A stretch of 64,000 nucleotides of DNA from NCBI GenBank assembly GCA_021234155.1, contig JAJEKV010000020.1, forward strand, positions 7,734,563 to 7,798,562, written 5' to 3'. The number at the start of each line of letters is the position of its first letter. The first letter of the stretch is position 1. The stretch comes from Isoetes taiwanensis. Lineage: Eukaryota; Streptophyta; Lycopodiopsida; Isoetales; Isoetaceae. This document shows positions 14,770-64,000 of this stretch, piece after piece. Below the pieces are notes generated by a model. The model was not told the origin of the DNA, did not search any database, and worked only from the letters and a program-made list of their open reading frames with translations. The translations under genes and the position numbers were made by a program.

Positions 14770-14865
14770 GCAAGTCACCGTTTTTGAGAAGCCAAAATCG
14801 ATTTTGGCTTCTCAAAAACGGTGACTTGCCAAAAGGATTAATCCTTTTGGCAAGTCACCGTTTTT
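14770..14865. repeat. Two overlapping perfect palindromes (60 and 52 bp)
   Basis: 14770-14829 is a perfect 60-bp palindrome with no spacer, centred on ATCGAT. 14814-14865 is a perfect 52-bp palindrome centred on ATTAAT. They share 14814-14829, so the word 'gcaagtcaccgttttt' or its complement appears three times in alternating orientation. Either could extrude as a cruciform or, if transcribed, fold into a long hairpin. Neither arm matches an element end I recognise. Confidence 0.95.
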
Positions 14866-38824: not shown

Positions 38825-40156
38825 TTGCTAATGGCAAACAAGGCCCGCGACCGATCCTCAAGAAGCCCCCAAGCGCCTCGGCAATCACGCTATCAACCAG
38901 CTCCAAACAAATCAACCTCGAATTTGGATCAACAAGCCCAAGAGGAAATTTTTCGGGCACTTAATCCTCCCGCAAAACCGTCAAATTGGGTTGGTCTAGT
39001 TTCACGCCGGACCAAGGCATCACGCCCCTTGACTATTATTCGGAAGGACCGCGAACCCGCTTTGCGGTTGACACCCTTCCTCATCAGACGAAAAAAAGGT
39101 TCACTTTGCACTGACTTAGAAAAGCTCATGCCAAATGTCATGCCCAAAGTTCGCCAAAGCATTTTGAATCTCATGCAAGCAGCTGAAGGCCGCACATTGG
39201 CCAATGTTCATGCCACCACTCGAGCTCAACAAAGACACGATCCACCTTCAACATCTCAACCTCCACGCTCTCAGACATATCCCAATATAGCAGCCGAGGT
39301 TGACTTACTCAAAGAAGTTGCTGCTTCCCTGCCACGCACTCCCGCACCTGTGGAACCAGCAGATCCTTTTTCTCATGTACCTCTAGAACTCCAAGAGGAG
39401 CTTGCCAAGATCAAAATTCCTTTAAGCTTGGCAACCATTTTAAAACTCTGTCCTGCTCTCAAGGACCAGTTACCACTCCCAACTGTTTTAGTTGGGGCTG
39501 TGGCTACCTCTACACCCACGGTCCATGCAACGGTGGGAAATCAGCAAGTCAACCATGTTCAAATCGATGGAGGTAGTGCAGTCAATCTCATCACGGACAA
39601 ACTCCGCAAACAAATGGGCATCACACAACTCTTTCGTGCCCCATATGACATCAAATTGGCTAATGGCCATATCACGAGACCTCAAGGCGTCACACCTATT
39701 CTACACATCAACATTGGTGATCTCCGCTTTCCCATGGAATTTGGAGTTTGGAAAGCTGGTGAAGATCCAGGTGACTATGAAATGCTGGTGGGAAGACCCT
39801 TTCTCCGCCAGGCAAAGAGTATCCATTACTGGGCCACGGACCAGTTAGTCATCACAGATGGTCATCTCAATGCCACAATGGACTTGCAAACAGGCCGGAT
39901 CATTTCCGTTGACAATGCGGAACCCTCTCTCTCAGACACTGATTCTGAAGACGCTCAGAATATTTATCAAGTTCAGGCTACCCCTGCGCGTCTGCCTCTG
40001 TCATCCTACCCCGAATATGCTGATCCTTGGGGAGAAATGACTCTTGATCAGGACCAGGCTGTGGCTGCCTTGCTTGACCCCTACCTGGCTCCTTGCAATG
40101 AATCCAACGCGTTGATCACTTTTTCAGATACGGACACACCGGCAACTCCTGGCTGA
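38825..40156 (+). CDS. gag C-terminus plus aspartic protease, 443-codon frame
   Basis: This is the longest intact frame of element 1. The N-terminal 200 residues are basic and proline-rich with no motif I recognise. From about residue 245 the frame reads VQIDGGSAVNLIT, the active-site motif of retropepsins (D-G/S-G/S), followed by MLVGRPFLRQ, the usual distal protease motif. The protease would cut the polyprotein. The frame ends before RT, where stops and frameshifts begin, so pol is no longer continuous. Confidence 0.65.
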   Translation: MLMANKARDRSSRSPQAPRQSRYQPAPNKSTSNLDQQAQEEIFRALNPPAKPSNWVGLVSRRTKASRPLTIIRKDREPALRLTPFLIRRKKGSLCTDLEKLMPNVMPKVRQSILNLMQAAEGRTLANVHATTRAQQRHDPPSTSQPPRSQTYPNIAAEVDLLKEVAASLPRTPAPVEPADPFSHVPLELQEELAKIKIPLSLATILKLCPALKDQLPLPTVLVGAVATSTPTVHATVGNQQVNHVQIDGGSAVNLITDKLRKQMGITQLFRAPYDIKLANGHITRPQGVTPILHINIGDLRFPMEFGVWKAGEDPGDYEMLVGRPFLRQAKSIHYWATDQLVITDGHLNATMDLQTGRIISVDNAEPSLSDTDSEDAQNIYQVQATPARLPLSSYPEYADPWGEMTLDQDQAVAALLDPYLAPCNESNALITFSDTDTPATPG

Positions 40157-40569
40157 TGTACACGCCGCCATGAAGCAACCATCGCTAGATGACACCGAGC
40201 AACCCTCTTTTTACCACGCCAAAGTGCCACGCATCCGTTATGCTCCAACCTCCCGCACACATTGTCCGGGATATGAAGTCATACCCCATATTCGGACTCC
40301 ACTCAAGTCGAAATTGTGGATGTTGGCAACAATCAACCCGTCTCAGATTGCTGCAAACCTTAGGCTCCTTATCGTAACAGGCCCGTCCGCATTTTGTTCA
40401 AAAAAAATTCAAACACATTTTCGCCGAGTTACAAAGATCGCGGGGAATCAACAAAAGCTTGGGGAACTCACCATTCCTACCAAATCTGATGCCACGACCC
40501 GGCAGCAACAACGATGCGATGTGAGCTCAACCCTAATTACGCGGATCGCGTCAAGGCGAAATTGACAAA

Positions 40570-41640
40570 CTCCTTGCCGCAGGTTTGATCTATGAGGTCA
40601 AACATTTCGAATGGGTGAGCCCTATCGTCATTGCCCTTAAGCACAATGGTAAGATCCGTACCGTGTAGACTATCGGAAACTCAATCGGGCCACGGGCGTG
40701 ATCATTTTCCACTTCCCTTCACGGACCAAGCCCGGAAGAAGTGGTTTGGACATGAGATGTACTCCTTTATGGATGGTTTCTCGGCTACAATCAAATCTCC
40801 ATCAAAGAATCTGATCAACTCAAGACCACTTTCACCACCCCGTGGGGCACTTTTGCCTACAAGGTGGTTCCTTTTGGATTATCCAACTCTCCTTCAACAT
40901 TTCAACGCATCATGCTCTCCGTTTTTCATGATTTCATGAAGGAAAATCCCTTCTTGCAAATTTTTCAAGATGACTTCTCTGCCTACAGTTCCATGGCTGA
41001 CCATTTGGATAAATTGGAACTCGTCTTTCAGAAATGTGATGAGTCCGGCATTAGTCTCAATCCTGAGAAATGCACCTTTTGCGTCACTTCTGGTGTTCTG
41101 TTAGGCCATGTTGTCAAAATAAGCGAGGAATCACCACCGATCCCCGCCAAAATCAGTTGTGTGCTAAAAGCTCAAGCACCAGCCAATATCAAAGAGACAC
41201 GCTCTTTCCTAGGAAAGGTCAATTATTACTCCACCTTCATACCTGGACTGGCAGCCATTGCAGATCCCATTCATAAACTCACGGGTGACGAATCCACCTG
41301 GGCTTGGAATTCCTGTGCTGAAGTCGCTTCCAACAAATTTGAAGCTTTTGCTTACTCGAGCACCGTACTTGTTCCTCCTCAATGGGACAAGCCCTTTCAC
41401 GTTCATGTCGATGTCTCGGCGTTTGCTATTGGAGCTGTTCTTTCTCAAGAATATGATGCGCACACTGATAAACCAAATCGCTATGCCACCGAAAACTCAA
41501 TTTCGGCTGGCGCAACTATTTCGGGCCACGGGCGTGAAGCTTTGGGTCTCATTTTCGTGTCCAACGCTTCCGTCATTACCTTTTGGGCAGTCAAATCAAG
41601 TTCTTTGTGGACCACCAAGCACTTCTCTATTTGATCAACA
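40570..41640 (+). pseudogene. Reverse transcriptase and RNase H of element 1
   Basis: RT blocks in order: a damaged VDYRKLN and FPLPF (about 40660-40720), HEMYSFMDGFSATIK, TTPWGTFAYKVVPFGLSNSP (in two frames) and the catalytic LQIFQDDFSAYS, with the Asp pair at 40969-40974. Then come EKCTFCVTSGVLLGHV, SFLGKVNYYSTFIPGL and the RNase H start HVHVDVSAFAIGAVLSQ. The last has DVS where most gypsy elements have DAS. Several frameshifts before 40860 and after 41460 make it non-functional. Confidence 0.75.
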
Positions 41641-41766
41641 AATCCACGCCCGCGGTCGCATTGCTTTCGTTGGGTCCTTCTTCTCCAAGAATTTGCTCCT
41701 TTTGAAATCGTTCATAAGGGTGGCAAATCTCATGTTGTTCGGATTATCTTTCACGCATCCACACGG

Positions 41767-43172
41767 ATGATCCCGCAGAGGAGTCTCGGGCGCCTTCCAC
41801 GATGCTCAACTTTTTTAGTCACGGCAACACCACATTGGTTCCATGATTTTCAGCGTTACCTCCTCACCGGTGCTCTTCCACGGAAGATGAGATGCTCTCT
41901 CGCCTTGGCGACAATCCCGTCGCCATCAATTCCTCAGGAGGTCCGTGACTACACCATGGTTGCGGACATCTCTACAAAAAAAGGTAAGGACACCATCCTT
42001 CCGTATTTGTGTGTTCTCCCTCATGAAGTTCCGGACATTGTTCGTGAAGCTCATCAAGGGCTAGGTGGTGGTCATTTTCATGGTGACACCACGACGCATA
42101 AAATTCTTCTTCCGGGTATTATTGGCCCACGCTCTTCAAAGATGCTCACGCCACGCCAAGACGTGTGACGCTTGCCCGGCCGGGTGGGGCGCCCCACGCC
42201 CGTGGCGCTCTTCCCTTGGCGCCGGCCGCCACGCCCACTTCCGCCGACAAATGGGGAATGGACTTTGTGGGACCTATAGACCCTCGGTAGCGGCACACTT
42301 CGTGCGATACATCCCGGTTCTCACCGACCACGCCACCAAATGGGCGGAAGCTTGTGCACTTCCGGCACAACACTGCTGCCCAAAGCCGCGGCTGAGTCCT
42401 CTATCAACAAATCATCACGCGATTGATACCGCCCCTACCTGAGCTGGTCGGTGATCGTGGTGTTCATTTCATCAATCATACTATCAAAGAGCTGACGGAT
42501 TATCTCTTGATACATCATCACAAGAGCACACCTTACTATCCTCAAGGCAATGGGTTGGCCGAAAGCACCAACAAAACTCTGGTCACCATTCTAAAGAAAA
42601 TTTGTGACGCTTCCCGCACAGATTGGCAGACAAAACTTCCTACAGTTCTTTGGGCCTACAATACTTGTTTCAAGATTGCTACGGGTCACACTCCTTTTAA
42701 ATTGGTTTATGGTCAGGAAGCTCTAATGCCCTTTGAATTCATTCTTCCAACACTCCGGTTTCAACTGGCTACTGCTCATAATCCACCAGCTGCTCTCAAA
42801 GAACGGGTCTATCAATTAGAACAGTTGGATGAACTTCGCAGGGATGCTTATATTCGTGTTCTTCATGGACAACAGTTGCAAAAATCTTTACATGACAAAC
42901 GTTTGAAGACAAAAACATTCAAACAAGGAGATTTGGTTCTTCTTTATGATTCCAGGTACAAAAATTTTCCGGGTAAACTCAAGTTTCGTTGGCTTGGCCC
43001 TTATCAAATTGTTCAAGTGGTTAGACCCAGTGTTTTCCAACTAGCTGAATTAGATGGCACTCCATTACCTACATTAGTTAATGGTTTTCGTCTCAAAGCA
43101 TTTCAGCACACAGAAAGTGAACATCCCAACACAGAGACAGTTCCAGAATCAAACACCACAGAAAGTGACTAG
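41767..43172 (+). pseudogene. Integrase of element 1, DD35E core
   Basis: An H-H zinc segment appears near 42035-42075 (VREAHQGLGGGHFHG) with a CDAC in another frame near 42168. The first Asp is in KWGMDFVGPI near 42250. From 42423 one frame of 249 codons runs to the end. It has D at residue 11 (LVGDRGVHF) and E at residue 47 (GNGLAESTNK), exactly 35 residues apart, the retroviral integrase signature. The C-terminal LKFRWLGPYQIVQVV is the usual GPY/F module. No chromodomain follows. The N-terminal half is split by frameshifts. Confidence 0.75.
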
Positions 43173-48495: not shown

Positions 48496-49527
48496 GACAT
48501 CATCGAGAATATGGTAAGAATATGGGGCATGAACTGGAGCAGAGGTAAGAGTTGAATCAGAACATGGAGCAGAAACAGGAACAACAAGGATGGAATCAGG
48601 GGCCCACGATACTGCACGAATCGAAGTCGATGTTGGTGTAAAGACCTGAACTGCAGATGAACTGGAACTAGAGCTAGAACCAGCAAATCAAAATGATCTA
48701 GTACGCCAATCAATCTATGGGTTATTTAGCTCGAGCCAGGGCAGACCCAAGATTATTGATGCATGTGGGCTAGCGATGAGATTGAAGGAAATACTACAAG
48801 AAACTCCCTCGAACAAAACCTAAAGAGGCGCAGTACATTCTGTGACTGCACCCGTGGAGATCTCCCGTCCATCAATCACTTTCACAAAACCGGGTTGCTC
48901 AACCTTGCTTCTAGGGATGGCGTACTTACTGGCAAACACACTATCTATAAAGCAAGCATTTGCACCACAGTTGTGCCAATGTTTCCAATATTCCAACCTC
49001 TGATTTCAATGATATAGAGATGAAGAATGCTTTGCTGACCTTATCCGATGGAATAAACATGTCAAGATGTGTGGAAGGAGTCTAGGAAAAGGCGGCCAGC
49101 CCACGAGAGACTCCTACTACTTGGACCGGCCCCTGAAGTTTTCCGACTGATTTGAGTGCTTCACAGGGCATCCACGAGCAATATGTCCAGTTCCTCTACA
49201 GTAGAGGCAAAGATTAGCCTCTCTCCAACGCTGCTTCTCGGTGGCAGATAAAGGTCCTTGAATTGCCCGATCAATCTGCATAGCTCAGGTCCGGACCTGC
49301 TAGATTCTATAGATGAGACCAAGGAAGGCATAGCTATAGGCGTTTGTGTGATTGGAAAGACCTGACTACGTCTCTCTTGCCTACATTCGAAGAACCGATT
49401 ATCACATCGAACTACAAATCTGATGGCTTCTTCCAAAGTCTGAGGGTCCTCCATAGACAACAGCATATCTTTGACATCCTCACGCAACCGCCTTTGAAAA
49501 CAATCTCGAAGTGCAACATCATCCCAG
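48496..49527 (-). repeat. 1.03-kb duplicated gag segment, copy A (inside RT)
   Basis: Nearly identical to 50312-51344 and in the same orientation. On the minus strand it contains gag C-terminal text ([20 protein letters not shown]). It sits exactly where the central RT domain with the catalytic YxDD should be. Confidence 0.9.
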
Positions 49528-50160
49528 ACATTGGTAAGTCCAAATCGGATAACTATGTACTCAAAATGGCCATACCGAGTACGAAAAGTTGTTTTCCATT
49601 CATCACCCTCCCCGATCCGGATAAGATTATAGGCACCCCGAAGATCAATCTTCGTAAAATAATGTGCACCTTGGAGTTGCTCCAACAACTATGGGATCAG
49701 AGGAAGCGGATACCGATTCGGCACTGTGATTTTATTGAGACCACGATAATCAACGACCAGACGCAGCGAATCATCCTTCTTTTTGACGATGAAGATAGGT
49801 GCTCCAGCAGGGGACTGAGAATGTCGAATGAAACTAGTGGCTAGATTCTCTTCAATATAATCCCGCAAAATCTTCAACTCAGTAGGAGATAGACCATATA
49901 TCGGACCATATGGCGGCATTGTCCCGGGCTGCAAATCAAGAGGACAATCATATGGAAGATGCTCTGAGAACTTGTTGGCCTTGGCTTTGTCAAAAACATC
50001 AGAGAAGTCGCCATATTTATCTAGGAGCATTGGAGCAGACTTCACTGGTGCCAAGCTAGCCGAGGGGTGGATTTGGATTGCAAATACTAAACTTGGATCT
50101 TACTTTCCAGATTTAACGAACTCGCGAAGAGAAATCTTCGAGATACAAAACTGAGGGTGT
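49528..50160 (-). pseudogene. RT N-terminal half of element 2
   Basis: Minus-strand frame: [75 protein letters not shown] (first catalytic Asp), [14 protein letters not shown] and FGLTN. It then runs straight into gag text ([14 protein letters not shown]) of copy A. The palm segment with the Asp pair is missing. The frame changes once between 49688 and 49689. Confidence 0.8.
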
Positions 50161-50311
50161 GAAGAAGCCTCTACAGAAGCAGGAGCAGGAACGGGAATAG
50201 GAGTAGGAGCAACTAGAACAGGAACTGGAGCAGGACTGGAGCAGGAGCAAAAGCAGGAACTGGAACAGGAGCAAGAGCAGGAGCAAGAGCAGAAACTGGA
50301 GCTGGAGTTGG
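50161..50311 (-). other. Pro/Ala-rich linker
   Basis: Low-complexity sequence encoding alternating Ala-Pro-Val (APVPVPAFAPAP) on the minus strand, of the kind that joins gag and pol. A protease motif is not seen, so that domain has probably been lost. Confidence 0.5.
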
Positions 50312-51344
50312 GACATCATCGAGAATATGGTAAGAATCTGGGGCATGAACTGGAGCAGAGGCAAGAGTTGAATCAGAACATGGAGCAGAAACAGGAACAA
50401 CAAGGATGGAATCAGGGGCCCACGATACTGCACGAATCAAAGTCGATGTTGGTGTAAAGACCTGAACTGCAGATGAACTGGAACTAGAGCTAGAACCAGC
50501 AAATCAAAATGATCTAGTACGCCAATCAATCTGTGGGTTATGTAGCTCGAGCCAGGGCAGACCCAAGATTATTGATGCATGTGGGCTAGCGATGAGATTG
50601 AAGGAAATACTACAAGAAACTCCCTCAAACAAAACCTAAAGAGGCGCAGTACATTCTGTGACTGCACCCGTGGAGATCTCTCGTCCATCAATCACGTTCA
50701 CAAAACCGGGTTGCTCAACCTTACTTCTAGGGATGGCGTACTCACTGGCAAACGCACTATCTATAAAGCAAGCATTTGCACCACAGTTGCACCAATGTTT
50801 CCAATCTTCCAACCTCTGATTTCAATGATATAGAGATGAAGAATGCTTTGCTGACCTTATCCGATGGAATAAACATGTCAAGATGTGTGGAAGGAGTCCG
50901 GGAAAAGGCGCCCAGCCGACGAGAGACTCCTACTACTCGGACCGACCCCTGAAGTTTTTCGACTGATTTGGGTGCTTCACAGGGCATCCACGAGCAATAT
51001 GTCCAGTTCCTCTACAGTAGAGGCAAAGATTAGCCTCTCTCCAACGCTGCTTCTCGGTGGCAGATAAAGGTCCTCGAATTGCCCGATCAATCTGCATAGC
51101 TCAGGTCTGGACCTGCTAGATTCTACAGATGAGACCAAGGAAGGCATAGCTACAGGCGCTTGTGTGATTGGGAAGACCTGACTACGTCTCTCTTGCCTAC
51201 ATTCGAAGAGCCGATTATCACATCGAACTGCAAATCTGATGGCTTCTTTCAAAGTCTGAGGATCCTTCCATAGAAAACAGCATATCTTTGACATCCTCAC
51301 GCAACCGCCTTTGAAAACAATCTCAAAGTGCAACATCATCCCAG
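50312..51344 (-). repeat. 1.03-kb duplicated gag segment, copy B (original position)
   Basis: Continuous with gag on its 5' side ([14 protein letters not shown]), so this is the native copy. It differs from copy A by scattered substitutions. Confidence 0.9.
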
Positions 51345-51895
51345 GCAGTATCCACCGTAATTTGACGAAATTCTGCTGCATATACTGAAGTTGGGCGAGA
51401 GCCTTGCTTGAGATTACAAAGTTTTGTGACTGCTGTGCGCTGACGATCGATGTCTCCAAAGTATGCCTTGAGCTCTACAGTGAAAGAAACAAAATCTTGC
51501 AACTCTGGGGCTCCTTTCTCTAACAAAGGAGCAAACTAACTTAGAGCTGGCCCTGTGAGGAGAGAACCAATCAGCCCAACTTGTTCCTGGGCCGGGGGAT
51601 ATCTTTGAGGGTGGAGCTGGATCACAAGCCTGATCTGATTCAAAAAACCATGGAGTTTGGACCGAGTGCCATCAAACTTCTCTGGCAGGCTGATCTTAGG
51701 CTCTGATAGCCTCAATCCAGAGCTAGAAGTATATTCATGTGAAGCAACATGTTCCTTAAGCTCTTTATTGTCCAACTGCAACTGCTGGCATGCTTGAACA
51801 AGCTGCTGGACCTGCTGTAATAAAGTCGAAACCTCCTCCATAGATATAAAATCACCAAATACGAGCAAAAAAATGCTTAGGATCAGAGCAGGCAA
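50977..51895 (-). pseudogene. gag of element 2 with one in-frame stop
   Basis: Minus-strand frame: a coiled-coil start (MEEVSTLLQQVQQLVQACQQ), PEKFDGTRSKLHGFLNQIRL, IGSLLTGPALS, TAG near 51536 where the family has Trp, FAPLLEKGAPELQDFVSF, AYFGDIDRQRTAV, SVYAAEFRQITVDTAWDD and [20 protein letters not shown]. This is the common capsid text of chromovirus-type Ty3/gypsy gag. A CCHC knuckle is expected next, and decayed traces occur further 3' (CRLIGQ...). Confidence 0.75.
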
Positions 51896-52137: not shown

Positions 52138-52223
52138 TCTAGGCCAACGATCAAGATCACGCCACATGGATGAGATCTCGCCAAGTGTCGCGCATGCATT
52201 TAGGTTCTAAAATGTTTTAGAAC

Positions 52224-53730
52224 TGTGACGTCCCCTACTCGTATACGATGCCCGCACCATATACAAACAGGAGTTCATCCCCCGCACCAGCTCCACACTG
52301 ATACAGGGCCCTCCACGTATCACTGTGATCATCTAGAATCCACAGTGGGAAGAGTGAAGGGGTCATTTACCCCGTCTTCCTCAGGGTCTACCTAGCTGCG
52401 GAAGCGTAAACATACATGTCAGTAACATAACATCATATATCCACCTCGAAGGGTGGTCCATCACATCTGCATAGACAAAGATCAGCACAATACATAGGGG
52501 AAATCCTACCCAAGGCTCAGACTCAAAGGGATGACTGACGGCTTGGGTCTCCGTGAGTTCATTGCGCATGCATAATTCATGGCAATGGATTTGGCGGGCA
52601 TAAGAACATGGCTTAGGGTTGTCCACACCATCCGCCCCCTCCGTGCACACTTTGCGAGTAGGTTGATAAGTGTTGGGACGATCAGAGTTCGCCGGGTGCA
52701 TAGCCAAAGGGGCTATTCCGGGTTACATCTCCCGGTCCCGATGGGGCAGGTAGGGATCGCTCCCTCCGAGATCTACATGCTGACCCAAAGGTGACTAGAG
52801 GGCCCCGCCCTTATTCGACTTAACCTTTGGAAGGTGAACTCCACCCCGGAGGTGTCGAGCCCATGCCTTACCCACACTTTCGGTGGCAAGCCATTAGACC
52901 TAGTCACTCACGATCCCAGGTGAGGGCCTTACACACCGGAGGGATCGGTCCAAGGGTCTAAACACTAACCTCATTCTAAGCCAGTCTGGCCCCTTCACCC
53001 ACAACCAGGTGGGGTTCTTGTACACAGGCCGAAATCTAGTAATGCACTAAGAGGGACTAACTAGGAGCATCATCTACTAAGCTTTAAGTCTCTACCCCCC
53101 TTCCCAATACAATGAGTTCACAGAATCCATCCGTTCATCATATCAACCTAATAAGTAATAAAGAACTAATCTATCTCATAGAGTTAGGTTCTTTAGTTAA
53201 GTCAATCTCGGGATCTACTTGGATGCTAGGGGTGATCTAATAGGCTAAACCTACTGATTCGAAGGCTGGAGTAAGGTTTATGCTATTTGATCGACCAAAT
53301 ACCTGATCCCTGGTTCGCTCCTCTTGATCCGAAGGCGTCCATGTCCCTGTTCTGCTTTGGGATGCGGTCGGAGGAATGATCTGACTAGCTGGGGCGCACA
53401 GGCAGATCGTGGGAGTTGGAATTGACTCTCTAGCGAATCGAGGCTCGAGGCGGAAGGTCCGTGGGGCTAAAAGGGGACTGTTAGGGTTTAATGCCTTATG
53501 TAGGCTATCAGTTAGGTTTAGGGTTGTCCATGACCCTTGGTCTACCTTTAATGGGTTAAAGGTCTAAAGGTGCGCGCATTGCCAAGTGTGCGCACCATTG
53601 CAAGTTGCCCCCTAGGGCGTCCCCCTCGGTATGCGCCGGCGCATATGTCGACCGGGCGGCGCGATAATGCGGACGGGCGCTTGAGACGGTATAACGTCTT
53701 GAGACCGTGATATCGTGATCGAACGTCACA
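52224..53730 (-). repeat. 3' LTR of element 3, 1507 bp
   Basis: Begins TGTGACGTCCCC (plus strand) and ends GAACGTCACA. The first 260 bases recur at 63739. Contains no protein-coding frame of note. Confidence 0.92.
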
Positions 53731-53742
53731 TCTCCCCACCTT
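53731..53742 (-). promoter_or_regulatory. Polypurine tract of element 3
   Basis: Minus-strand aaggtggggaga directly precedes the LTR start TGTGACG. Confidence 0.85.
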
Positions 53743-54555: not shown

Positions 54556-55590
54556 TTAATCTACACAAATCGACATGCCCGGCCGATTTCTTGAGGAGAT
54601 GTTTTTTTTTGCCGTCCCATTGCTCCATAAACCGTGGGTCTTGTTTTCCATATCTCTTTTAAGTACCCATGTTGCGTCTTCCACCGGCAAGTGCTTCCAC
54701 TTGACCAAGTATTGGAGGAACTCCGATCTCCTTGTTTTCTTGAATGCTTTATCAAGAATTAGCTCTGGAACTATCTCCAATTGCTCCTCTGTCATTTCCA
54801 ACATCGTTGGGGTTTCCAGTATTTCATCTGGGTTGGGAGTGTGCTTCTTCAGCAAACTCACGTGGAAGACTTTGTGGATCTTTAAGTGTGCTGGCAAGTC
54901 TAACCTGTAGGATTGGTTACCCACTCTCTTGACTATTTTGAATGGTCCAGCCCACCTTGGAGCAAGTTTCTTGCAATTCCCGATGCGGAGCTTTGCCTGC
55001 TTCACCTTGATCTTGAGCCACACATTGTCGCCAACTTCAAACTGCCTGACTGTTCGATGCTTGTCGGCGATGCTCTTTTGACGACTCCTTGCTGCTAGGA
55101 GATATCCCCGTACTTCTTCTACGAGCTGCTGCATGTCGCTTAGCATTTGTTGGGAGACTTCCACTTTTGACACGGGATTGTGCCAAGTGTCTGGAGTTAG
55201 GCATTGGTAGCCGTAGTTGATCATGAATGGCGACATTTGGGATGATTCTTGCTTGGTGCTATTTATGCATAAACTCCACCAAGTGAATAAATTCCTCCCA
55301 CATACCTTGCTTGTTCGGACATAGTTTGAGCATGTCTTCCAAAATCCTATTGACACGCTCTGTTTGCCCATCCGTCGTGGATGGTAGGCGTGCTCATGGA
55401 TAGCTTCGTTCCAATCGTTGTGAAGAGATCCCGCCGTATGCCGATGAACCGGATCTCGGTCGGAGATAATTTCTCTTGGCATGCCATGAAGTCCGAAAAT
55501 CTCTTTGGTGAAGAGTTTTGCCGTGTCCATAGTTGTGTCCGTGGTCGCAAGGCACAAAATGGGCCATCTTCGACAACTTGTCGACCACAA
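54556..55590 (-). CDS. Integrase C-terminal part with chromodomain (344 codons)
   Basis: The first 100 residues are a frameshifted integrase core; ISDRDP (second catalytic Asp) is kept at residues 43-48, then the frame slips. From about residue 110 the text is normal: SPFMINYGYQCLTPDTW, VRQFEVGDNVWLKI, KLAPRWAGPFKIVKRVG (the GPY/F module) and SYRLDLPAHLKIHKVFHVSL. Residues about 272-320 form a chromodomain (EIVPELILDKAFKKTRR, LQYLVKWKHLPVEDATWV), with the W-K-x-L-P-x-E-x-A-T-W core. In chromoviruses this module directs integration to chromatin marked by histone methylation. An upstream indel prevents translation of this frame as an intact integrase. Confidence 0.8.
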   Translation of the reverse strand: MWSTSCRRWPILCLATTDTTMDTAKLFTKEIFGLHGMPREIISDRDPVHRHTAGSLHNDWNEAIHEHAYHPRRMGKQSVSIGFWKTCSNYVRTSKVCGRNLFTWWSLCINSTKQESSQMSPFMINYGYQCLTPDTWHNPVSKVEVSQQMLSDMQQLVEEVRGYLLAARSRQKSIADKHRTVRQFEVGDNVWLKIKVKQAKLRIGNCKKLAPRWAGPFKIVKRVGNQSYRLDLPAHLKIHKVFHVSLLKKHTPNPDEILETPTMLEMTEEQLEIVPELILDKAFKKTRRSEFLQYLVKWKHLPVEDATWVLKRDMENKTHGLWSNGTAKKNISSRNRPGMSICVD

Positions 55591-56715
55591 CCATCAAGGC
55601 ATCCTTACCTCTTACTGTTCTTGGCAATCCTGTTATAAAATCCATGCTGACGACCTCCCACTTAGCGTTTGGTACAGCTAATGGTTCCAAAGCACCCGGG
55701 ATTGAAGTTGTTCGCGCCGTTTGCTTTGGCATAGCTGACACTCCTTGATGTGGCGAGCTATGCGTTTCTTCATTCGGCCAATAGTAGCTGCTACGCACTT
55801 TGAAGTATGTCTTCATGAAACTGCGTGGCCAGCTATTGGCTGTTGTGGGTGTCGTGGAGGATCAACTTTCTTACTCCGGATGATTCCCAAGACGCACAAC
55901 TTGTTCTTATGGTATAGGAGGTTACCTTCCTTTTTAAAGTTTTTGAAGGTTTCCCTCTCCTTGTCCGTTCTTGCTTCCTTGGACAAGCTTGCCCATACTT
56001 CTTTGAAGTCCTCATCCGTTGGCAAGGTTTCTTCTATCTTTTTCCCGAAATCATTTGAAGAGCGTCGAGATTGCATTGCGGTGCACTCACGGTTGTCGGT
56101 GGATGCCTTGAAAGCATCTGCTTTACGACATTAAGCTTCGGGGTTTGTAGACTATCTCAAAGTCGTACTCTTCAAGAAATTCCATCCACCTTCTGCGCCG
56201 CCAGTTGAGATGTGGTTGCGTGAATCGTATTGGAGCTCTCGGTGATCGGTGTCCAACTGGAATTTCCTCCCTAAGAGGTAATGCCTCAGATTCTCAATGC
56301 CCCGACAAGCGCTAGCGGTTCTTGATCATCGCGTCGGTAACGCATTTTGGCGTCGTTCATTTTCCTTGAGTAAATGCGCTATTACCAGCTCTTCTTGCAT
56401 CGACCGCACTGTGGCTATCTTGCTTGCATCCGTTGCCACTAACTTATCCTTCTCTCGGGTGCGGCGGGGTTAAGGCGAGGCGGTTGTCAAGGCTTCCTTC
56501 AACAACTCAAATCTGCTTGGGCCTTCTTGAGCCAATGGTGCGCCAATTTTTTACTTTCTCGCCTTTGTTAAGTCGATTGGGGCTGCTATCTTTTGCGAAG
56601 TTCTTCGAACTTCCTGTAATACCCTGCTAGGCCAAGGAAACTTCGACCTCATGGGCGTTCTTTGGTGCGGCCATTGGATTCTTTGCCCGATCTTGGCGGG
56701 TGCAGCCGAGATTCC
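55394..56715 (-). pseudogene. RT end, RNase H and integrase N-terminus of element 3, decayed
   Basis: Just after the RT frame stops (VISA then TAA), text continues as GISAAPAKIGQ and APIDLTKARK in drifting frames. LPTDEDFKEVWASLSKEART lies near 55990 and LLYHKNKLCVLGIIR near 55910. SSYYWPN, then HIKECQLCQSK (zinc motif, shifted frame) and WEVVSMDFITGLPR with the first catalytic Asp follow near 55630. Frequent 1-base slips and missing bases make the region non-coding, whereas the neighbouring gag-RT frame is clean. RNase H is barely recognisable. Confidence 0.7.
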
Positions 56716-59307
56716 TTACGCTGAAATCACATGACCGAGGTATTCCACCTTCTCTGTTGCGAAGTGACACTTCGACAACTTGGCATACAACTGATGCTTC
56801 CTTAACTTCTCGAGCACCTTCCTGACGTGCTGAGCATGCTCTTGAATGGATTTACTGTACACCAGAATGTCGTCGAAGAATACTATGACAAAGGTGTCTA
56901 AGTATTCTCTGAAGATGTCATTCATGAGTCTCATGAATGTAGCTGGGGCGTTGGATAGCCCAAATGGCATTACAGTGAATTCATAATGCCCGTACCTGGT
57001 CCTGAAGGCTGTTTTGTGGATGTCCTCTTCTTTTATTCTGATCTGGTGATACCCTGATCTTAGGTCGATCTTGGAGAAGACCTTTGCGCCTTGGAGCTGA
57101 TCCATCAAGTCATCTGATCTGGGGAGTGCGTACTTGTTCTTGATGGTGTGCTTGTTCAATTGTCTGTAATCTATGCACATACTCAAACTTCCATCCTTCT
57201 TCTTGACAAAGAGGATGGGTGCCCCAAATGGTGAGACACTAGGCCTGATGAAGCCTAGATCGAGCAATTCTTGTAGTTGCTTCTTCAGCTCCGTGAGTTC
57301 ATGTGTGGTCATTCTATATGGGGCTTTGCTTGTCGGCTTGGTCCCTGGCTCGAGTGCTATCTCACACTCTACTCCCCTGTAAGGAGGAAGTTTCTCGATC
57401 TCATCTGGAAAGAGATCGTGGAATTCTGTAATCAAGTTGGCGATTGGCTTGGGTAACTTGCCGAGCACCTTGTCTTCCTTGCTTTCTTCCGACTCTTGTT
57501 CCTCCATCTCGAGTTTGAAGATGTATGCTACCTTCTCGCTCCTTATAGATTTGAGCAGCTTCTTAACGGACATACATTGCATGATGGGGGTAACTTCTTT
57601 ACCTGTGATCTCAATGGCTTTTCCGTCGGGCGTTGGGAAGGTCACCTTCCGCTTCCCACAATCGATGATGGCCCCTGCTGGCCCAAGGTACTCCATTCCA
57701 ACAATCAAGTCGTATTTGCCAATGCCCATTACTTCTGCCCCCATCTGGATACTAATCCCTGGCAAGTCAATGTCGAAGTTGATTCTCTTCCCAGCTGTAT
57801 GTCTTATTGCTCCGCTTGCCAAGATTACGGGCCTTGGTTTGGACTTTAGGGGTTTCAGTTTCAGCATTTCAACCATCCTTGGGGATGCGAAGTTATGGCT
57901 ACTTCCGGAGTCTATCAAGACTATGAAGGATTTGGCCTTTGCCTTCCCTACTGTGGTGATTACCTTATACTGGGTCTCTGCCTGTTCTGTATCTATGGCA
58001 GCGAAGATGTGGCACTCACCCTGAATGTAATCGCGTGCCTCCTCGCCGTCCTCGTCTGACGGAGTGTCCCATCCGCCCAACTCTGCCAGCGCTGAGCTCA
58101 TAACAAATGGGCAATTTGCTGTTCGGTGGCCCGGCTGGAAACATCTGAAGCAGAGCTGCTTCTCCATGCATTCCTGTCTTTTCTCCTTGGGCAACGCCTG
58201 TAGGAAGGACCGTACTGCTTTCGAGTAATTGGATCCTTCCTGTTTGTCCTTGAAGGACACCTGCTTTCTTTCCTGTTGTTTCCCCTGGTTGCTGTTGTAT
58301 GGGGACTTTGCTGGGCTTGGGCTGGCTGCCCTAGGACTGTAGCTTCCTGTTGCTTTCCCTTTATCCTGATAGTATGGCTGTCTCTGTGCGCTGCTCTGCG
58401 GCCCTGATCCTTGCAAACTAATTGCCTTGGACTCCGCTTCAGACACTGTTCTGGGGTCTATTGCCCGTACTAGTTTCCTGAGTTCTTCATTCAGCCCTTC
58501 TATGTAGCTTTCCACGGCGTGTTTCTCGCTTAGCTTCGGCACATATAGCCTTAGTCTCATAAACTCCTCGGTGTACTTCTGCACCGTTTTGTATCCCTGC
58601 TGCAATCTGTAAAACTGCTGCATCATGTTCGACTTGTGTTCTCGAGGGACATAGTGTTTCTTGAAAGCTTTTGAGAACTTCTTGAAGCGGCATGCGTCTC
58701 TGCTCAACCCATGGGCCTTGGCATAGCCTTTCCACCATATGCGTGCGGCTCCTTTCAGGTTGGCTGTCGCCACCCTGCCTTTGTCTTTGTCCTTCATGCC
58801 GTAGGCATTGCCGTACTCACTCATTTCGTCCAGCCATGCCTCTGCCTCTAAGCCGGATCTGTTCTCGCCTGAGAACTGTTCGAGTTTCCGGGCTTTCCAC
58901 ACATTACCCAGTGCTGAGTCCACCTTCTTCTGGTAATCGAGGGTCTTAGTGTCCTTCTGCCTTCCGTCTCTACGGTCCGGCGCCTGCTCGGCCTCTTTTT
59001 CGGACTCAGAGTCCGAAGTTGAGCTTGATTCGGAGGTCTCTGTGCTAGGGGACCTCCTTCTTTTACTCCTCCTCTTGTCTTTCCCCGACTTTCGGGGTGT
59101 CGTTTGTGGCCCGGATGATGCTTGGGCTGCTAGTAGGGCCTTTATCTGGTCCAGGTCTGTTCGCATCTGCGACAACTCTTCTTCTGGTGTCATGGGGCCA
59201 TATCCCTCGAAGAGGTTCCTTTGAAGGGGTTGCCTGTCAGGAGTCTCTTCGTCCATGTTGGGCCTCCTGTTTTGTTCGACCATTCGTTGTTCTCTATCTG
59301 CACACAC
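56716..59307 (-). CDS. gag-protease-RT polyprotein of element 3, 863 aa, intact
   Basis: One uninterrupted frame. Residues 60-100 are Ser/Arg/Glu-rich. Residues 130-290 are gypsy capsid ([35 protein letters not shown]). The zinc knuckle CX2CX4HX4C is at 386-399 ([14 protein letters not shown]). The protease motif [11 protein letters not shown] has its Asp at 466, and IVGMEYL lies distal. RT runs from about 640 with [13 protein letters not shown] (Asp 748), [12 protein letters not shown] and [10 protein letters not shown] (Asp 812-813). It stops at YLGHVISA, so the RT connection, RNase H and integrase are cut off by a TAA. A splice-acceptor-like 'tgtgtgcag' lies over the first codons (ending 59298), so translation may start at Met9 from a spliced mRNA. 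Confidence 0.93.
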
Positions 59308-59491
59308 AGTTGGTTATGGCTGTATGGTTAGTTTTATTTGTTCTCTTGGCTTTATATGTGATGTTGGTATAATTGTGGGGGAACGAAATTACATCAACAA
59401 AACATTCCAAGTGCAAAAAGGACAAAGAAGTTATATTCATATTTTATAATATGCTAATACAAATTAAAGCTTCCGGGATCAAGATTGCTAA
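59308..59491 (-). other. Leader between accessory genes and gag
   Basis: No frame here. It ends at the acceptor-like site just inside the gag frame. No TATAAATAG box like those of the two accessory genes is seen, so gag is more likely expressed from the LTR transcript, perhaps spliced. Confidence 0.35.
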
Positions 59492-59974
59492 CTAATCTTG
59501 ATGTCGCCGGTAGGATGGATTGTCCTCTAGGAACTTCTTCACTTGGGCTGTTCCCACTGAATGACCCAAGTTCCTAAGGACGTTGACTGACGATCCACCC
59601 TGCAAGGCTCTCGCCAGTTCTTCTACTCTGCGTCCGGAGGTGTAGGCTGCGGTTACTGCTAGCCTTCCTTGCCGCCTGTAGGGTATGGCGAAGTCAAAAA
59701 CATCGAGTGCTACTGCTCTCTTCACCAGGATGGCATACTCGGTGTTGAGGGGCAACCGCGCATGCCGGCCAAATCCTGAGAGCGCAATTAGCATCGATAC
59801 TCCTTCCTCGCCTCTGGGGGTGAACTTGCGGTGAATTACCGCTATTCTTCCATTCATCAGCAGGGGGAGGTAATACCGCAACGACCTGTCGTTGCGAGAT
59901 GGGTCCTCGGCCGCTCGGTATCCTGCTCTGTGTCTTCCCGCAAAATCATCAACCTCTACCGTGGTGAGCTCCAC
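59492..59974 (-). CDS. Accessory protein of element 3, 160 codons, unrecognised
   Basis: The intact frame, starting at a GTG, covers VELTTVEVDDFAGRHRAG, YYLPLLMNGRIAVIHRKF, SMLIALSGFGRHARLPL and VKKFLEDNPSYRRHQD. It is basic and of mixed secondary structure, with no motif I know. Upstream text in another phase (RGEFDLVRASKQQLRDYE) runs naturally into it, so it is probably the 3' part of a longer protein broken by one indel, perhaps joined to the 319-codon frame. It lies between that frame and gag on the same strand. Function unknown. Confidence 0.55.
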   Translation of the reverse strand: MELTTVEVDDFAGRHRAGYRAAEDPSRNDRSLRYYLPLLMNGRIAVIHRKFTPRGEEGVSMLIALSGFGRHARLPLNTEYAILVKRAVALDVFDFAIPYRRQGRLAVTAAYTSGRRVEELARALQGGSSVNVLRNLGHSVGTAQVKKFLEDNPSYRRHQD

Positions 59975-60109
59975 TCGTAGTCCCTAAGCTGTTGCTTTGA
60001 AGCTCTCACGAGGTCGAATTCACCTCTTCTTTCAGGGGAGGCGTTAGAAGAAGAGCTTCTTTGTTAAGATGTTAGATGTGCGTGGCGAATCCCCATCTGT
60101 TCTGAAGAG

Positions 60110-61069
60110 CTAGGAACTCTTCCTCCGTCGGTAGTCTATTTGCGGCCTCATCGCCTCCATCATTTGCACGATGCGTTTGTAGGCTTGAATGTCGGAAGTC
60201 GACTCTCCTGTGTAGGTGTCGGCTTCCCTTATTTGGAGCGGAAAGTCAGATGCTCCTCGGACGATGAAGTCGTCCAGGTCCGTTCTTCGGAGTTGGTGCA
60301 GCAACTCTTGGTCGGTACTCCCTTTCTGCACGCACTCGGGAGGTTTTGGATGTCGGCTTAAAAGCAAAAATTCCTCTCCCTCGACAATAATGGGGGCTAG
60401 GCTTGTAATGCCTAGCCCAAGAAAAGCGACTCTAGGAGTTTGCGGCTTCTTTCGAAGTCCTGCCACTTCTTGCTCGCTTGTCGCCCGCTCCTCTGCTTTG
60501 GGTCGAGCTTCGACATAGTCTTCCTCCTCTTCTGATTCTTGTTCTTCTGAGTCCTCCTCTTCTTTTCCTTCCTGCTCCTGTTCATATTGCGTAAGGAGTC
60601 GTTGTTCTGCTGCTATGGCTATTGGGTCGACGTCCATGGGGGGAATGGAGGTTTCTCCCACAATGTTCTCCGACACGATGGAAAGAAAAATTGCCGAGGC
60701 GGTGTTGAAAGAGAAATATTTGGTCCTATTAACAGTTAGGACCATTGGCTCGGGTGTGCGCTGCGCCTTGTTTGTCAAGTATTTGGCAATGTTTGGAACA
60801 TCACCTAAAGCTGCTTGCAGGGATTGCCTAGGAACAAAGTACCCTATGCAAGGTGGGAGCTGCACTAGTGCTGGTTCTATCCTAGCTTGGAATTTGGACA
60901 GGACTCTACTGTAAGCTGGGGTTGCATGCAGAGTTGCTTGGACATCTACCTCTTTCCGGAAGACATGGAAAATTTGGTCGATGTCGGCCTCGGCAAAGAT
61001 GTTATTGGCGGCTGTACCATCTGCGGAAATCAGAGGTTGCCATTGGTTAAATGCGAAAGAGGGTATCAA
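60110..61069 (-). CDS. Accessory protein of element 3, 319 aa, unrecognised
   Basis: Intact frame starting MIPSFAFNQWQPLI. The N-terminal half looks globular (ADIDQIFHVFRKEVDVQATL, VQLPPCIGYFVPRQSL, NIAKYLTNKAQRTPEP). Residues about 165-195 are an acidic run (EEEDSEEQESEEEED). The C-terminal half has VAFLGLGITSLAPIIVEGEE and ends in a basic DYRRRKSS. There is no gag, pol or envelope motif and no signal peptide. Its own TATAAATAG box sits 88 bases upstream and two 67-bp palindromes lie further up, suggesting separate transcription. Length and intactness argue for recent selection. I cannot assign a function. Confidence 0.65.
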   Translation of the reverse strand: MIPSFAFNQWQPLISADGTAANNIFAEADIDQIFHVFRKEVDVQATLHATPAYSRVLSKFQARIEPALVQLPPCIGYFVPRQSLQAALGDVPNIAKYLTNKAQRTPEPMVLTVNRTKYFSFNTASAIFLSIVSENIVGETSIPPMDVDPIAIAAEQRLLTQYEQEQEGKEEEDSEEQESEEEEDYVEARPKAEERATSEQEVAGLRKKPQTPRVAFLGLGITSLAPIIVEGEEFLLLSRHPKPPECVQKGSTDQELLHQLRRTDLDDFIVRGASDFPLQIREADTYTGESTSDIQAYKRIVQMMEAMRPQIDYRRRKSS

Positions 61070-61156
61070 ACGGTTGCAAGAGCGCGTCAGGGAGCTGGAA
61101 AATCGGCTAAGAAGGCAGGAGCAAACTTGTAGGGTGTTATGTGTGAAATGAGGGAC

Positions 61157-61165: not shown

Positions 61166-61356
61166 GAAAAGGGGGAAACCCTAATTTTTGGATGACTTGG
61201 AAAATTCCTGGGGTTGAGCAATTCTAGTTTATACTGAGGTCAAAATGGGAATTTGAAGACTAGTTCAAGTGTTTGAGCATGGTTGGATTACCTAAAAGAT
61301 GCTATACAACAGGTTGGGAGTCCTTCGGGCAAGTTCTGGTGAAGAAATGATAGGAG

Positions 61357-61423
61357 GTCTCACAGCTTGCGCCTCGCTCAAAAACTAAAGTTTAGTTTCT
61401 TGACCAGGCGCGAGCTGTGAGAC
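61357..61423. repeat. 67-bp palindrome, copy 1
   Basis: Starts gtctcacagcttgcgcct and ends aggcgcgagctgtgagac. The two 33-base arms pair with few mismatches around a single central base. Copies 2 and 4 have the same length. Confidence 0.92.
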
Positions 61424-61557
61424 ATCAGTCCCATTTTGATCAAAACATGTCCGATTTGGATAAACTAAGGATATAAGGATGATGGGCTCATCAAATCAGG
61501 TAGAATCGACCCTTTATTTGGTCGATTTGGGGCTGTTTTGGGCGAGTTTTGGGCAAG

Positions 61558-61624
61558 GTCTCACAGCTTGCGCCTCGCTCAAAAACTAAAGTTTAGTTTT
61601 TAGTCCAGGCGCGAGCTGTGAGAC
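61558..61624. repeat. 67-bp palindrome, copy 2
   Basis: Same as copy 1 with minor changes in the inner right arm. 134 bases separate copies 1 and 2. Confidence 0.92.
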
Positions 61625-61771
61625 ATCACGTCTTTCTGTCTGCACTTGTCCTATTTTACCAAAATAAAAGCTAAAACTTGCTAACTTATTCTAATTAAGC
61701 AAGTTCAGACAATTAAAGCACTCAAAATTGTTCTATTATCACAAAAATTTCTCGATTATTTACAAAAAAGT

Positions 61772-62365
61772 TTAGGGGCGTTCTCCCTTGACGCGAGTAG
61801 CCAGTTGCATGTCTTGCCTCATCAAAGTCACTTTCGCCGCATGGACGATTGCAAAATTTGTTGAGTCTTCAAAATCTTTGCACTATCTTACGCTTTCATT
61901 TGCTTCACGGAGTCTTGCAAGCATCTCATCTGTAACCCTGTAGTCCGTCCTGAAATCCTGCATTACTTCTCTAACTAGCCGAGCAAAGGGGGCGCGGGGA
62001 ATCAGGAGGCCGTAGCTGCGTTGAAAGTGCCGAATCTCCCGTAGTGCTCTTTGCTCGAGCTGCTTCTTTGTGAGCTTCTTCTGTGCAGGCTTTTTCGGGA
62101 CCTTGGGTCTTGGTGGTGGCGGTCTTAGGGTGCATTTGCTTGGTTGGGTGTCCTCGCCGATGGCCACGACCCTGTTCTCCTGGTAGTACTTGTCGTATGC
62201 CTCCCACTCCTTCATATAGGCATGGTGCTCCCGCATCTTGCGCTCATAGACCTTGACCGGGTTTGTGACATACGACTCTCGAGCAGGCCGGGGTTGCTTT
62301 TTCCTGTCCCATTTCGGGTAAGGAGGGGGCTTCTTCACTGTGTCCTGCTGCTCCTCCTCGGCCAC
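61772..62365 (-). pseudogene. Histone H3-like histone fold, one in-frame TAG
   Basis: From about 62047 the minus strand reads ALREIRHFQRSYGLLIPRAP and FARLVREVMQDFRTDYRV. These match the H3 alphaN helix, alpha1 and loop 1 ([38 protein letters not shown]). LARLREANES matches the first half of alpha2. A TAG follows at 61885-61883. The same frame then continues with DFEDSTNFAIVHAAKVTLM and QLATRVKGERP, matching the H3 end (LFEDTNLCAIHAKRVTIM, QLARRIRGERA), to a TAA at 61774-61772. The whole H3 core is therefore present. Before the fold lies a basic, proline-rich stretch (RPPPPRPKVPKKPAQKKLTK) and a unique N-terminal part. The GTG start is arbitrary; this frame probably continues the H3-tail frame upstream. 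Confidence 0.9.
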
Positions 62366-62387
62366 TTCACCTTTCGGTTACTACTGT

Positions 62388-62843
62388 TCAACTACTACAT
62401 TTCAGCAGTAGGGGTTTGGAAGAACTTGCCCCTTCTGTGTTGGGGTTAGGCTCTTCGTCGGAACTCTCCGAGGGGGTTGGGGGATGATCGGGTGGCCGTT
62501 CAATAATGGTGATCTTCGGTTTGGGCTTTTTCCCCATAGGGACGTCCTTGAACTTCCTTGGGCTCCCCACCCATTTCCCTTTCTTCTTTTTGTGCTCCTC
62601 GGCCGATTTCTTCTCTTCTTCTTCCCTCTTCCTCTTCTTCTCCTCTCTTTTCCTTTTCGGCGTTAAGTATTTCACGATAAACCCGGCGGGGGTGCCTTCC
62701 TCTTCGGCTGAAGTCTCGGCTCCAACTGCTCCTGTTGCTCCTCCGCTTCCTTTTCTCTGATCCAGGCTTCGACTTGTTCTTCGATAGTCGGCTCTGGAGT
62801 TGGCATCCTTCGTTCCTCTCGGGCCTTGGTTCTCCTTTCCCAC
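62388..62843 (-). CDS. Middle part of the H3-like accessory protein (charged linker)
   Basis: This frame overlaps the H3-tail frame in another phase. Its plausible part starts near EEEGTPAGFIVKYLTPKRKR and runs through a Lys/Glu-rich helix (EEKKRKREEEEKKSAEEHKK), GKWVGSPRKFKDVPMGKKPK and ITIIERPPDHPPTPSESSDE to a TGA at 62388. Composition suggests a nuclear, disordered or helical charged linker. The tail frame seems to slip into this one near 62710, and this one into the histone-fold frame near 62375. One protein broken by two indels is the simplest reading. Confidence 0.5.
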   Translation of the reverse strand: MGKENQGPRGTKDANSRADYRRTSRSLDQRKGSGGATGAVGAETSAEEEGTPAGFIVKYLTPKRKREEKKRKREEEEKKSAEEHKKKKGKWVGSPRKFKDVPMGKKPKPKITIIERPPDHPPTPSESSDEEPNPNTEGASSSKPLLLKCSS

Positions 62844-63061
62844 TGCGCTTCCTCCTCCTCTTCCCCAATTACTTCCGTCCCTGCTTCCGAGTGTGCTTCA
62901 TCTTCTTCATTATGCTCGTTCGAATGTTCTTCCCCACTCGAAGAAGGTGCGTCGTTAGGGTTAAGGGGCTCTGCAACATCGCCGATATCGTCTTGGCATT
63001 GGCGATTGGCGGTCGCTTCGCCTGGGCGGGCTTTCCTCGCAGTCTGCTTGGTCCGTGCCAT
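62672..63061 (-). CDS. Accessory frame starting with an exact histone H3 tail
   Basis: The 129-codon frame begins MARTKQTARKARPGEAT. Residues 1-10 equal the start of eukaryotic histone H3 (Met then ARTKQTARK), including the K4 and K9 positions. Residue 10 is Ala instead of Ser, so the S10 phosphorylation site is lost. The H3 similarity then stops, and an acidic stretch follows (SSSGEEHSNEHNEEDEAH, EVIGEEEEEAQWERR) and a helical EEQVEAWIREKEAEEQQEQL. A TATAAATAG box is about 100 bases upstream. With the H3 fold downstream on the same strand, this looks like a much-expanded H3 variant carried by the retrotransposon. Confidence 0.85.
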   Translation of the reverse strand: MARTKQTARKARPGEATANRQCQDDIGDVAEPLNPNDAPSSSGEEHSNEHNEEDEAHSEAGTEVIGEEEEEAQWERRTKAREERRMPTPEPTIEEQVEAWIREKEAEEQQEQLEPRLQPKRKAPPPGLS

Positions 63062-63170: not shown

Positions 63171-63275
63171 GCTTTTCAAATTTTTTTAGGTCAAACTTCA
63201 AGTTACTCTATTTAACATGCTAAGATACCTATTTAGTTAAAACTTACACTTATTTCAGACTTTTCCTACTTATTG

Positions 63276-63325
63276 GTCTCACAGGTCGCGCCTCGCTCAA
63301 AAACTAAAGTTTAGTTTTTAGTCCG
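63276..63325. repeat. 67-bp palindrome family, copy 3 (right arm lost)
   Basis: The left arm and centre match copies 1, 2 and 4 (gcctcgctcaaaaactaaag). After 'tagtccgg' the right arm is replaced by unrelated sequence. Confidence 0.85.
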
Positions 63326-63464
63326 GTATGTATGTGAATCTCACACACATTTTTAAGTAATTTAAGTAATCAAATCATGCTATTCTTACTAATTCCTATC
63401 TTAGAATTAGCTTTACCCTATTAGTTTTCTCAAATTCATCATATTTAAGTGATCTTGGCTCGAT

Positions 63465-63531
63465 GTCTCACAGCTTGCGCCTCGCTCAAAAACTAAAGTT
63501 TAGTTTTTAGTCCAGGCGCGAGCTGTGAGAC
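63465..63531. repeat. 67-bp palindrome, copy 4
   Basis: Full-length copy, about 400 bases upstream of the H3-tail start codon. Confidence 0.92.
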
Positions 63532-63725
63532 CACCTCACTTTGGCAAAATTTTTGGCTCATTCTTTTTAGTTTTATTAATTTCCAATTCACTTAATTGTT
63601 ACTAGCTTAGCATAAACTACAAAAATGAGAAAAAAAATTTCCCACTTTTCGAAGCTCAAGAATCCTACCAAGTTAGTACTACTGGGAGTATGGCCAGTGC
63701 TTTGCTCTTGGTCTCCAAGAACATT

Positions 63726-63737
63726 GCTCTGATACCA
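63726..63737 (-). promoter_or_regulatory. Primer binding site of element 3
   Basis: Minus-strand TGGTATCAGAGC, the perfect complement of the initiator tRNA-Met 3' end, one base from the LTR end. Confidence 0.95.
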
Positions 63738-63738
63738 C

Positions 63739-64000
63739 TGTGACGTCCCCTACTCGTATACGATGCCCGCACCGTATACAAACAGGAGTTCATCATCCCA
63801 CCGGCTCCACGTCGACGGGGGCCCTCCACGTATCACTGTGATCATCTAGAATCCACAGTGGGAAGAGTGAAGGGGTCATTTACCCCGTCTTCCTCAGGGT
63901 CTACCTAGCTGCGGAAGCGTAAACATACATGTCAGTAACATAACATCATATATCCACCTCGAAGGGTGGTCCATCACATCTGCATAGACAAAGATCAGCA
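63739..64000 (-). repeat. 5' LTR of element 3, truncated by window end
   Basis: Matches 52224-52483 almost base for base, apart from a short divergent patch around 63790-63820. Confidence 0.92.

Follow-up and report, generated by a model that had tools for sequence, protein, structure and literature searches.

A histone H3-derived open reading frame (ORF1) lies between the primer-binding site (PBS) and gag of a 13.0-kb chromodomain Ty3/Gypsy retrotransposon with 5-bp target duplications in Isoetes taiwanensis. ORF1 belongs to the element, is under purifying selection, and occurs in two or more diverged types. One is the type found in the window, that is, the whole 64-kb stretch analysed here. 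This window type carries the H3 tail and a diverged fold, and a second, fusion type carries a near-canonical fold. The reading we favour, with moderate confidence, is that ORF1 is an H3-derived chromovirus accessory gene, kept by selection, whose product engages host chromatin together with H4.

The element possesses long terminal repeats (LTRs), PBS, polypurine tract, target-site duplication (TSD), gag, protease (PR), reverse transcriptase (RT), and an integrase with a chromodomain, the set that defines a chromovirus (Table 1). Since the LTRs match and GTTCT is found at both flanks, the element extends from 52224 to about 65234, past the window end, and the 5' LTR starts beyond that end, at C1019:7799796. 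Each LTR measures about 1.5 kb, begins with TGTGACG, and ends with GTCACA; the two differ by 53 mismatches in about 1,477 ungapped columns. The PBS, TGGTATCAGAGC, is presumably of the plant initiator-Met type. No Pfam match to the integrase core domain was obtained in the window pieces scanned. ORF2, which contains an acidic stretch and has no Pfam match at the thresholds used, is located between ORF1 and gag, so the H3 ORF does not adjoin gag. Four copies of a ~67-nt palindromic hairpin flank ORF1, two per side with ~200 nt between the members of a pair. Three of the four fold at about -43 kcal/mol (z -8.7 to -10) and the truncated copy does not; the hairpins perhaps serve the separate expression of ORF1.

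Table 1 Features of the ORF1-bearing element in the window.
Feature	Position	Strand	Evidence
5' LTR, runs past window to about 65234	63739..64000	-	LTR alignment
PBS TGGTATCAGAGC	63726..63737	-	sequence; exact in 31/39 loci
Hairpin repeat copy 4	63462..63534	.	repeat and fold analysis
Hairpin repeat copy 3, truncated, no stable fold	63275..63324	.	repeat and fold analysis
ORF1, H3-type ORF (tail, linker, fold), broken in window copy	61775..63061	-	translation, Pfam, PDB
H3 tail MARTKQTARK	63032..63061	-	sequence; kept in other copies
Linker middle, other-frame stretch (two frame changes)	62388..62693	-	frame translation
H3 histone fold, TAG inside at 61883-61885	61775..62080	-	Pfam, PDB matches
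Hairpin repeat copy 2	61556..61628	.	repeat and fold analysis
Hairpin repeat copy 1	61355..61427	.	repeat and fold analysis
ORF2 first part	60110..61156	-	no Pfam match; matched in 18/19 downstream stretches
ORF2 second part, same frame	59492..59983	-	31-34% identity behind 2/3 fusion-type H3 ORFs
gag, protease, reverse transcriptase, single frame	56716..59313	-	PF03732, PF19259, PF08284, PF00078
Integrase C-terminal part with chromodomain (54640-54771)	54556..55593	-	PF24626, PF00385
Polypurine tract AAGGTGGGGAGA, one T inside	53731..53742	-	sequence
3' LTR	52224..53730	-	LTR alignment
TSD GTTCT, partner outside window	52219..52223	.	flank comparison

In a by-eye alignment with HP1, the element chromodomain lacks the first and third of the three aromatic cage residues. 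Canonical H3K9me reading by this chromodomain is therefore unsupported, and reading of ORF1's own K9 is not predicted. The element chromodomain resembles those of plant group II, which lack the same two aromatics, and plant group II chromoviruses share the single gag-PR-RT frame, the 5-bp TSD, and the TG...CA LTRs (PMC3350952, PMC6317226). In contrast, the accessible text of these two papers mentions no H3 ORF, whereas the window element has two extra ORFs before gag. The binding partner of group II chromodomains is described as not known in the accessible part of PMC6317226.

Other parts of the window contain the remains of a Ty3-like element at 38633-43172 (+), with frames similar to the RT and integrase of the ORF1 element, and two direct repeats of ~1 kb at 48496-51347, 96.5% identical, with RT-like fragments nearby. 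An open frame at 12924-13610, which we take to resemble an LEA-type protein, and two overlapping palindromes of 60 and 52 nt at 14770-14865 were also observed.

On the minus strand, ORF1 starts with MARTKQTARKARPGEA (frame 1 of 61772-63061), and its C-terminal part, ...ALREIRHFQRSYGLLIPRAPFARLVREVMQDFRTD...FEDSTN...KGERP*, is encoded in the same frame; only a middle stretch of ~300 nt is shifted. An earlier note, made from the letters alone, had described an exact H3 tail and a full H3 fold on the strand of an LTR element, placed between PBS and gag and broken by two frame changes and a TAG. Minus-strand translation, Pfam, and PDB matches confirm the tail and fold, the positions of PBS and gag-PR-RT confirm the placement, and the other-frame stretch and the TAG inside the fold bear out the breaks. 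The same note had considered that tail and fold might belong to unrelated frames, which is not the case. With X at stops, the ORF1 translation matches the Pfam Histone family (PF00125, E 2.1e-16), and its fold part matches histone H3 chains in the PDB at about 1e-21, all 60 of the matches listed being named H3; with these values, the similarity to H3 is not due to chance. The window type retains about residues 1-9 of the canonical H3 tail, after which a strongly charged linker begins.

The genome, 1,658,258,908 bases in 1,110 contigs, has on another contig an rbcL of green-plant type that appears nearest to land-plant enzymes, and it contains further copies of the ORF1 region. A DNA search with the ORF1 region, in which 40 of 1,294 candidates were scored, gave 46 match rows, from which 39 loci were fetched; these carry the ORF1 region by construction, as this region was the query. 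The element's LTR lies upstream in 37 of the 39 and is absent from the stretches fetched for L004 and L008, the exact PBS is found in 31, and hairpins flank ORF1 on both sides in 34. Five loci have the full open MARTK-to-GERP frame, and 34 are without it; in one of the five, an internal segment is deleted and a patch of the fold is scrambled. An open but altered frame is found in two more copies, L023 (both ends) and L028 (C-terminus), and L004 is open apart from shifted first codons. Among 19 downstream stretches, ORF2 was matched in 18 and gag-pol in 14. Copies with the same LTR and copies with an unbroken frame, both of which the earlier note had proposed to look for, thus exist, and the outcomes that it had named as refuting, the absence of any other copy or a host pseudogene inserted in one copy only, did not occur. 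Its proposal of a captured, expanded H3 variant of the element is supported by the shared LTR, the open frames, and dN/dS values below 1. Two H3 regions lie about 2.2 kb apart in L036, with hairpins, apparently a tandem arrangement within or between copies.

In the seven open copies, dN/dS was 0.098 for tail codons 1-17 (bootstrap 0.034-0.198), 0.146 for the fold (0.092-0.217), and 0.282 for the linker (0.226-0.345). These values come from non-independent pairs, and the linker's first half occurs in two poorly aligning versions. The dN/dS below 1 that had been proposed as a check was therefore obtained for tail, fold, and linker alike (0.10, 0.15, and 0.28). The tail was compared in 31 loci, leaving out 8 of the 39 in which it was not locatable within 14 mismatches of 48. 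All 31 have A, T, K4, Q, R8, and K9, and 25 have the exact ten residues; dN/dS of tail codons 2-13 is 0.10, whereas at the nucleotide level the tails of ORF1 and host H3 share only 18-22 of 30 positions. The residue following K9 is Ala or Pro in 29 of the 31 loci, Ser in one, and Arg in one, so the S10 switch is mostly lost.

Copies were also compared without filtering for open frames, giving dN/dS values that include post-insertion decay. These are 0.294 for the fold (0.223-0.393; 39/39 loci, 11 stops), 0.267 for the last linker part (38/39 loci), 0.271 for the gag capsid (14/20 stretches), 0.265 for the protease (13/20), and 0.213 (14/20) and 0.382 (18/20) for the two ORF2 parts. Sequences with less than 60% of codons aligned were dropped from this run (fold 0/39, linker 1/39, gag 6/20, protease 7/20, ORF2 6 and 2/20). 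The bootstrap ranges of fold, gag capsid, and protease overlap, and the similar values indicate comparable constraint on ORF1 and on the core genes of the element.

A Pfam Histone search of the genome, in which 150 of 8,704 candidates were scored, returned 15 matches that score as canonical H3 and 135 others. L060 and L061, read from the 15, were confirmed as canonical H3; four of the 15 lie within 0.3 Mb at C1025:2980447-3280160, apparently a histone H3 cluster. Among the 135 other matches, the open frame reaches 300 codons or more in 55 and 400 or more in 36. Seven long ORFs (L064-L070) were read along with two shorter pieces (L062 and L063), and in all seven a new N-terminal part, some 310-360 residues long, is joined to an H3 fold at the C-terminus. 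ORFs that place a near-canonical H3 fold on another N-terminal domain are probably many beyond these seven. Their folds are 82-88% identical to host H3, and three of the ORFs match PF00125 at E 1.2e-43 to 2.6e-41. The N-terminal parts form three subtypes, with identities of 66-88% within and 30-34% between them, and the H3 folds remain 79-90% identical across the subtypes with synonymous sites mostly saturated. In the 7 of 21 pairs that are measurable, some with high dS, dN/dS is 0.03-0.16 in the fold and 0.09-0.23 in the N-terminal part; in the other 14, synonymous sites are saturated in one or both regions. The canonical-type tail is absent from the seven fusion ORFs read, and a search of L060-L073 for the hairpins did not find them.

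Related gag is located downstream of each fusion ORF whose downstream side was examined, three in all. After L065 (stretch L071), an ORF precedes gag and protease. L068 is followed (L073) by ORF2, gag, protease, an integrase match that narrowly misses the Pfam cut-off, and, in a frame interrupted by stops, the same chromodomain motif; L067 is followed (L072) by an ORF2 match and a decayed gag. The gag-protease regions are 50-51% identical to that of the window element over 465-493 residues in two cases and 45% over 131 in the third. The second part of ORF2 matches L072 and L073 at 31-34% identity (E 1e-7 and 5e-6) and has no match in L071. The L071 ORF shares 49% identity with the first part of the L073 ORF and, over 113 residues, 24% with window ORF2 (single-comparison E 3e-5). 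The ORF2 link between window and fusion types is thus weaker than the gag link. The window LTR has a similar stretch upstream of one fusion ORF, L074 (75.7% over 152 bases, E 1.6e-18), where no exact PBS was found.

The H3-H3 contact residues C110, H113, and D123 are present in all 17 window-type and all seven fusion folds compared. The listed DNA contacts are also present in the fusion folds, except R63 in one of the seven. The window-type fold keeps R49, R69, R72, and R83 but is without R63, L65, F84, and K122 in 17 of 17, and the upstream RYRPGT stretch is lost. Since these residues and this stretch are missing, nucleosome assembly by the window type is doubtful. At the alpha-2 chaperone site of H3 (described in the accessible part of PMC9145170), the host, as judged by eye in the alignment, has SAVL, the fusion type FAIL or HAIL, and the window type mostly EMLL. 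Structure prediction contributes little, its models being weak. A model of the 101-residue window fold has a pLDDT of 61, and its nearest PDB entries are nucleosomal H3 with 50-56% identity (best E 4e-3, TM about 0.27). The model of a fusion ORF has a mean pLDDT of 53.8, with values mostly of 60-80 and one poor stretch in the N-terminal 230 residues, and matched nothing in the PDB at E 1e-3 or better.

In a profile comparison of the two ORF1 types, the fold and some 50 residues before it align; the alignment is limited to this region, and kinship of the N-terminal domain with the window linker is therefore not claimed. In a tree of 29 folds, which omits 3 of 32 rows (one partial and two with altered folds), the window type forms one group (98/97), and the fusion type forms another (80/76) beside host H3. 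On long branches, the window type joins an Arabidopsis CENH3 (91/90). Loop 1 is longer in CENH3 than in H3, and it has the H3 length in all 17 window-type folds, which speaks against CENH3. A CENH3-like query of the genome (150 of 8,003 candidates scored) returned host H3 and H3-bearing ORFs, and no CENH3 was identified among them. No relative was found in viral contigs when the fold piece, gag-pol, the two ORF2 parts, or fusion alignment A1 served as query.

Silencing of retroelements works through histone H3 marks, which chromodomain elements are believed to use in choosing their targets. Our inference is that chromoviruses of this lineage keep a protein derived from H3 to handle host chromatin. 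The ORF1 protein would pair with host H4 and enter chromatin or dock there, bringing an element-specific part with it, either the charged linker or the N-terminal domain. Bound in this way, it may anchor the integration complex or shield element copies from silencing. The fusion type would be nucleosomal, the window type more doubtfully so. In the window type, the K4/K9 epitope may be read or modified by the host machinery for H3 tails, and its constraint suggests traffic with H3 readers or writers. A bolder version seems possible but doubtful: the lineage may make its own chromatin, loading its DNA or its targets with an H3 that it encodes itself and that bears an element-specific domain. It would thereby mark copies, steer integration, and resist silencing, and would have done this for so long that several protein types could diverge.

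Of the competing explanations, a decoy is the most serious, although we consider it rather unlikely. ARTKQTARK on a flexible charged linker would titrate the silencing readers and writers of H3K4/K9 outside nucleosomes; viruses are known to have histone mimics (accessible parts of PMC6972770 and PMC10208167). The tail is indeed the most constrained part of ORF1, its S10 switch is mostly lost (29/31), and several DNA contacts are missing from the window-type fold. However, the fold is constrained too (0.146) and keeps its H3-H3 contacts, and the seven fusion ORFs read are without such a tail. The strongly charged linker would also suit a role in packaging, in which ORF1 condenses the element's nucleic acid in the particle, and some giant DNA viruses use histones on their genomes (accessible part of PMC12297534). 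This role is improbable on two general grounds. Ty3 gag itself already provides for nucleic acid binding, and H3 alone, without H4, is not expected to wrap DNA.

Passive capture, in which a host H3 hitch-hikes unused like transduplicated gene fragments, is quite improbable. Plant LTR elements commonly capture genes (accessible part of PMC13317346), and 34 of the 39 window-type copies are without a full frame, but dN/dS is 0.10-0.15 in tail and fold, the constraint about equals that on gag, and the fusion-subtype folds remain highly similar despite mostly saturated synonymous sites. The lack of constraint expected of a passive fragment was thus not borne out by the selection tests. That the H3 ORFs are host genes beside retroelements or assembly artefacts is highly improbable. 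For the window type it is refuted by the shared LTR, which precedes ORF1 in 37 of 39 loci. Upstream sequence of the fusion type comes from one copy, with partial LTR similarity and no exact PBS, but related gag follows all three ORFs traced.

Element-borne histones are already known, and an LTR retrotransposon with H3 appears to be a class for which we found no report in the open-access literature, as far as its text was accessible. A close likeness is with the hAT transposons of Dothideomycetes, which carry a mobile, many-copy H3-like ORF (H3L) as well but are class II DNA transposons rather than LTR retrotransposons (PMC3538342, PMC6710886). In six Mycosphaerellaceae species, extra H3L copies are RIP-inactivated, and the Pyrenophora H3L event is termed recent and independent; the accessible text of these two papers describes no fused domain like that of the fusion type and mentions no element with a chromodomain. 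The single H3 genes found in DNA viruses, such as that of the clam xenomavirus, are likewise lone H3s with host histones as the expected partners, one of them with a predicted N-terminal addition, but their carriers are DNA viruses, and a retroelement-encoded histone is not described in the accessible part of PMC9145170. The bracovirus H4 (PMC9145170) is also virus-borne, has an extended tail, and acts via host nucleosomes; it differs in being an H4 and a virulence gene of a DNA virus, a wasp provirus. The word 'histone' is absent from the main text of the I. taiwanensis genome paper as accessible (PMC8566536).

The presence of an element-borne H3 under strong selection makes it directly testable how transposons respond to chromatin silencing. 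The ORF1 types provide natural variants of H3 in which the tail is replaced or a domain is fused on, and transposon H3 can inflate histone gene counts in such genomes.
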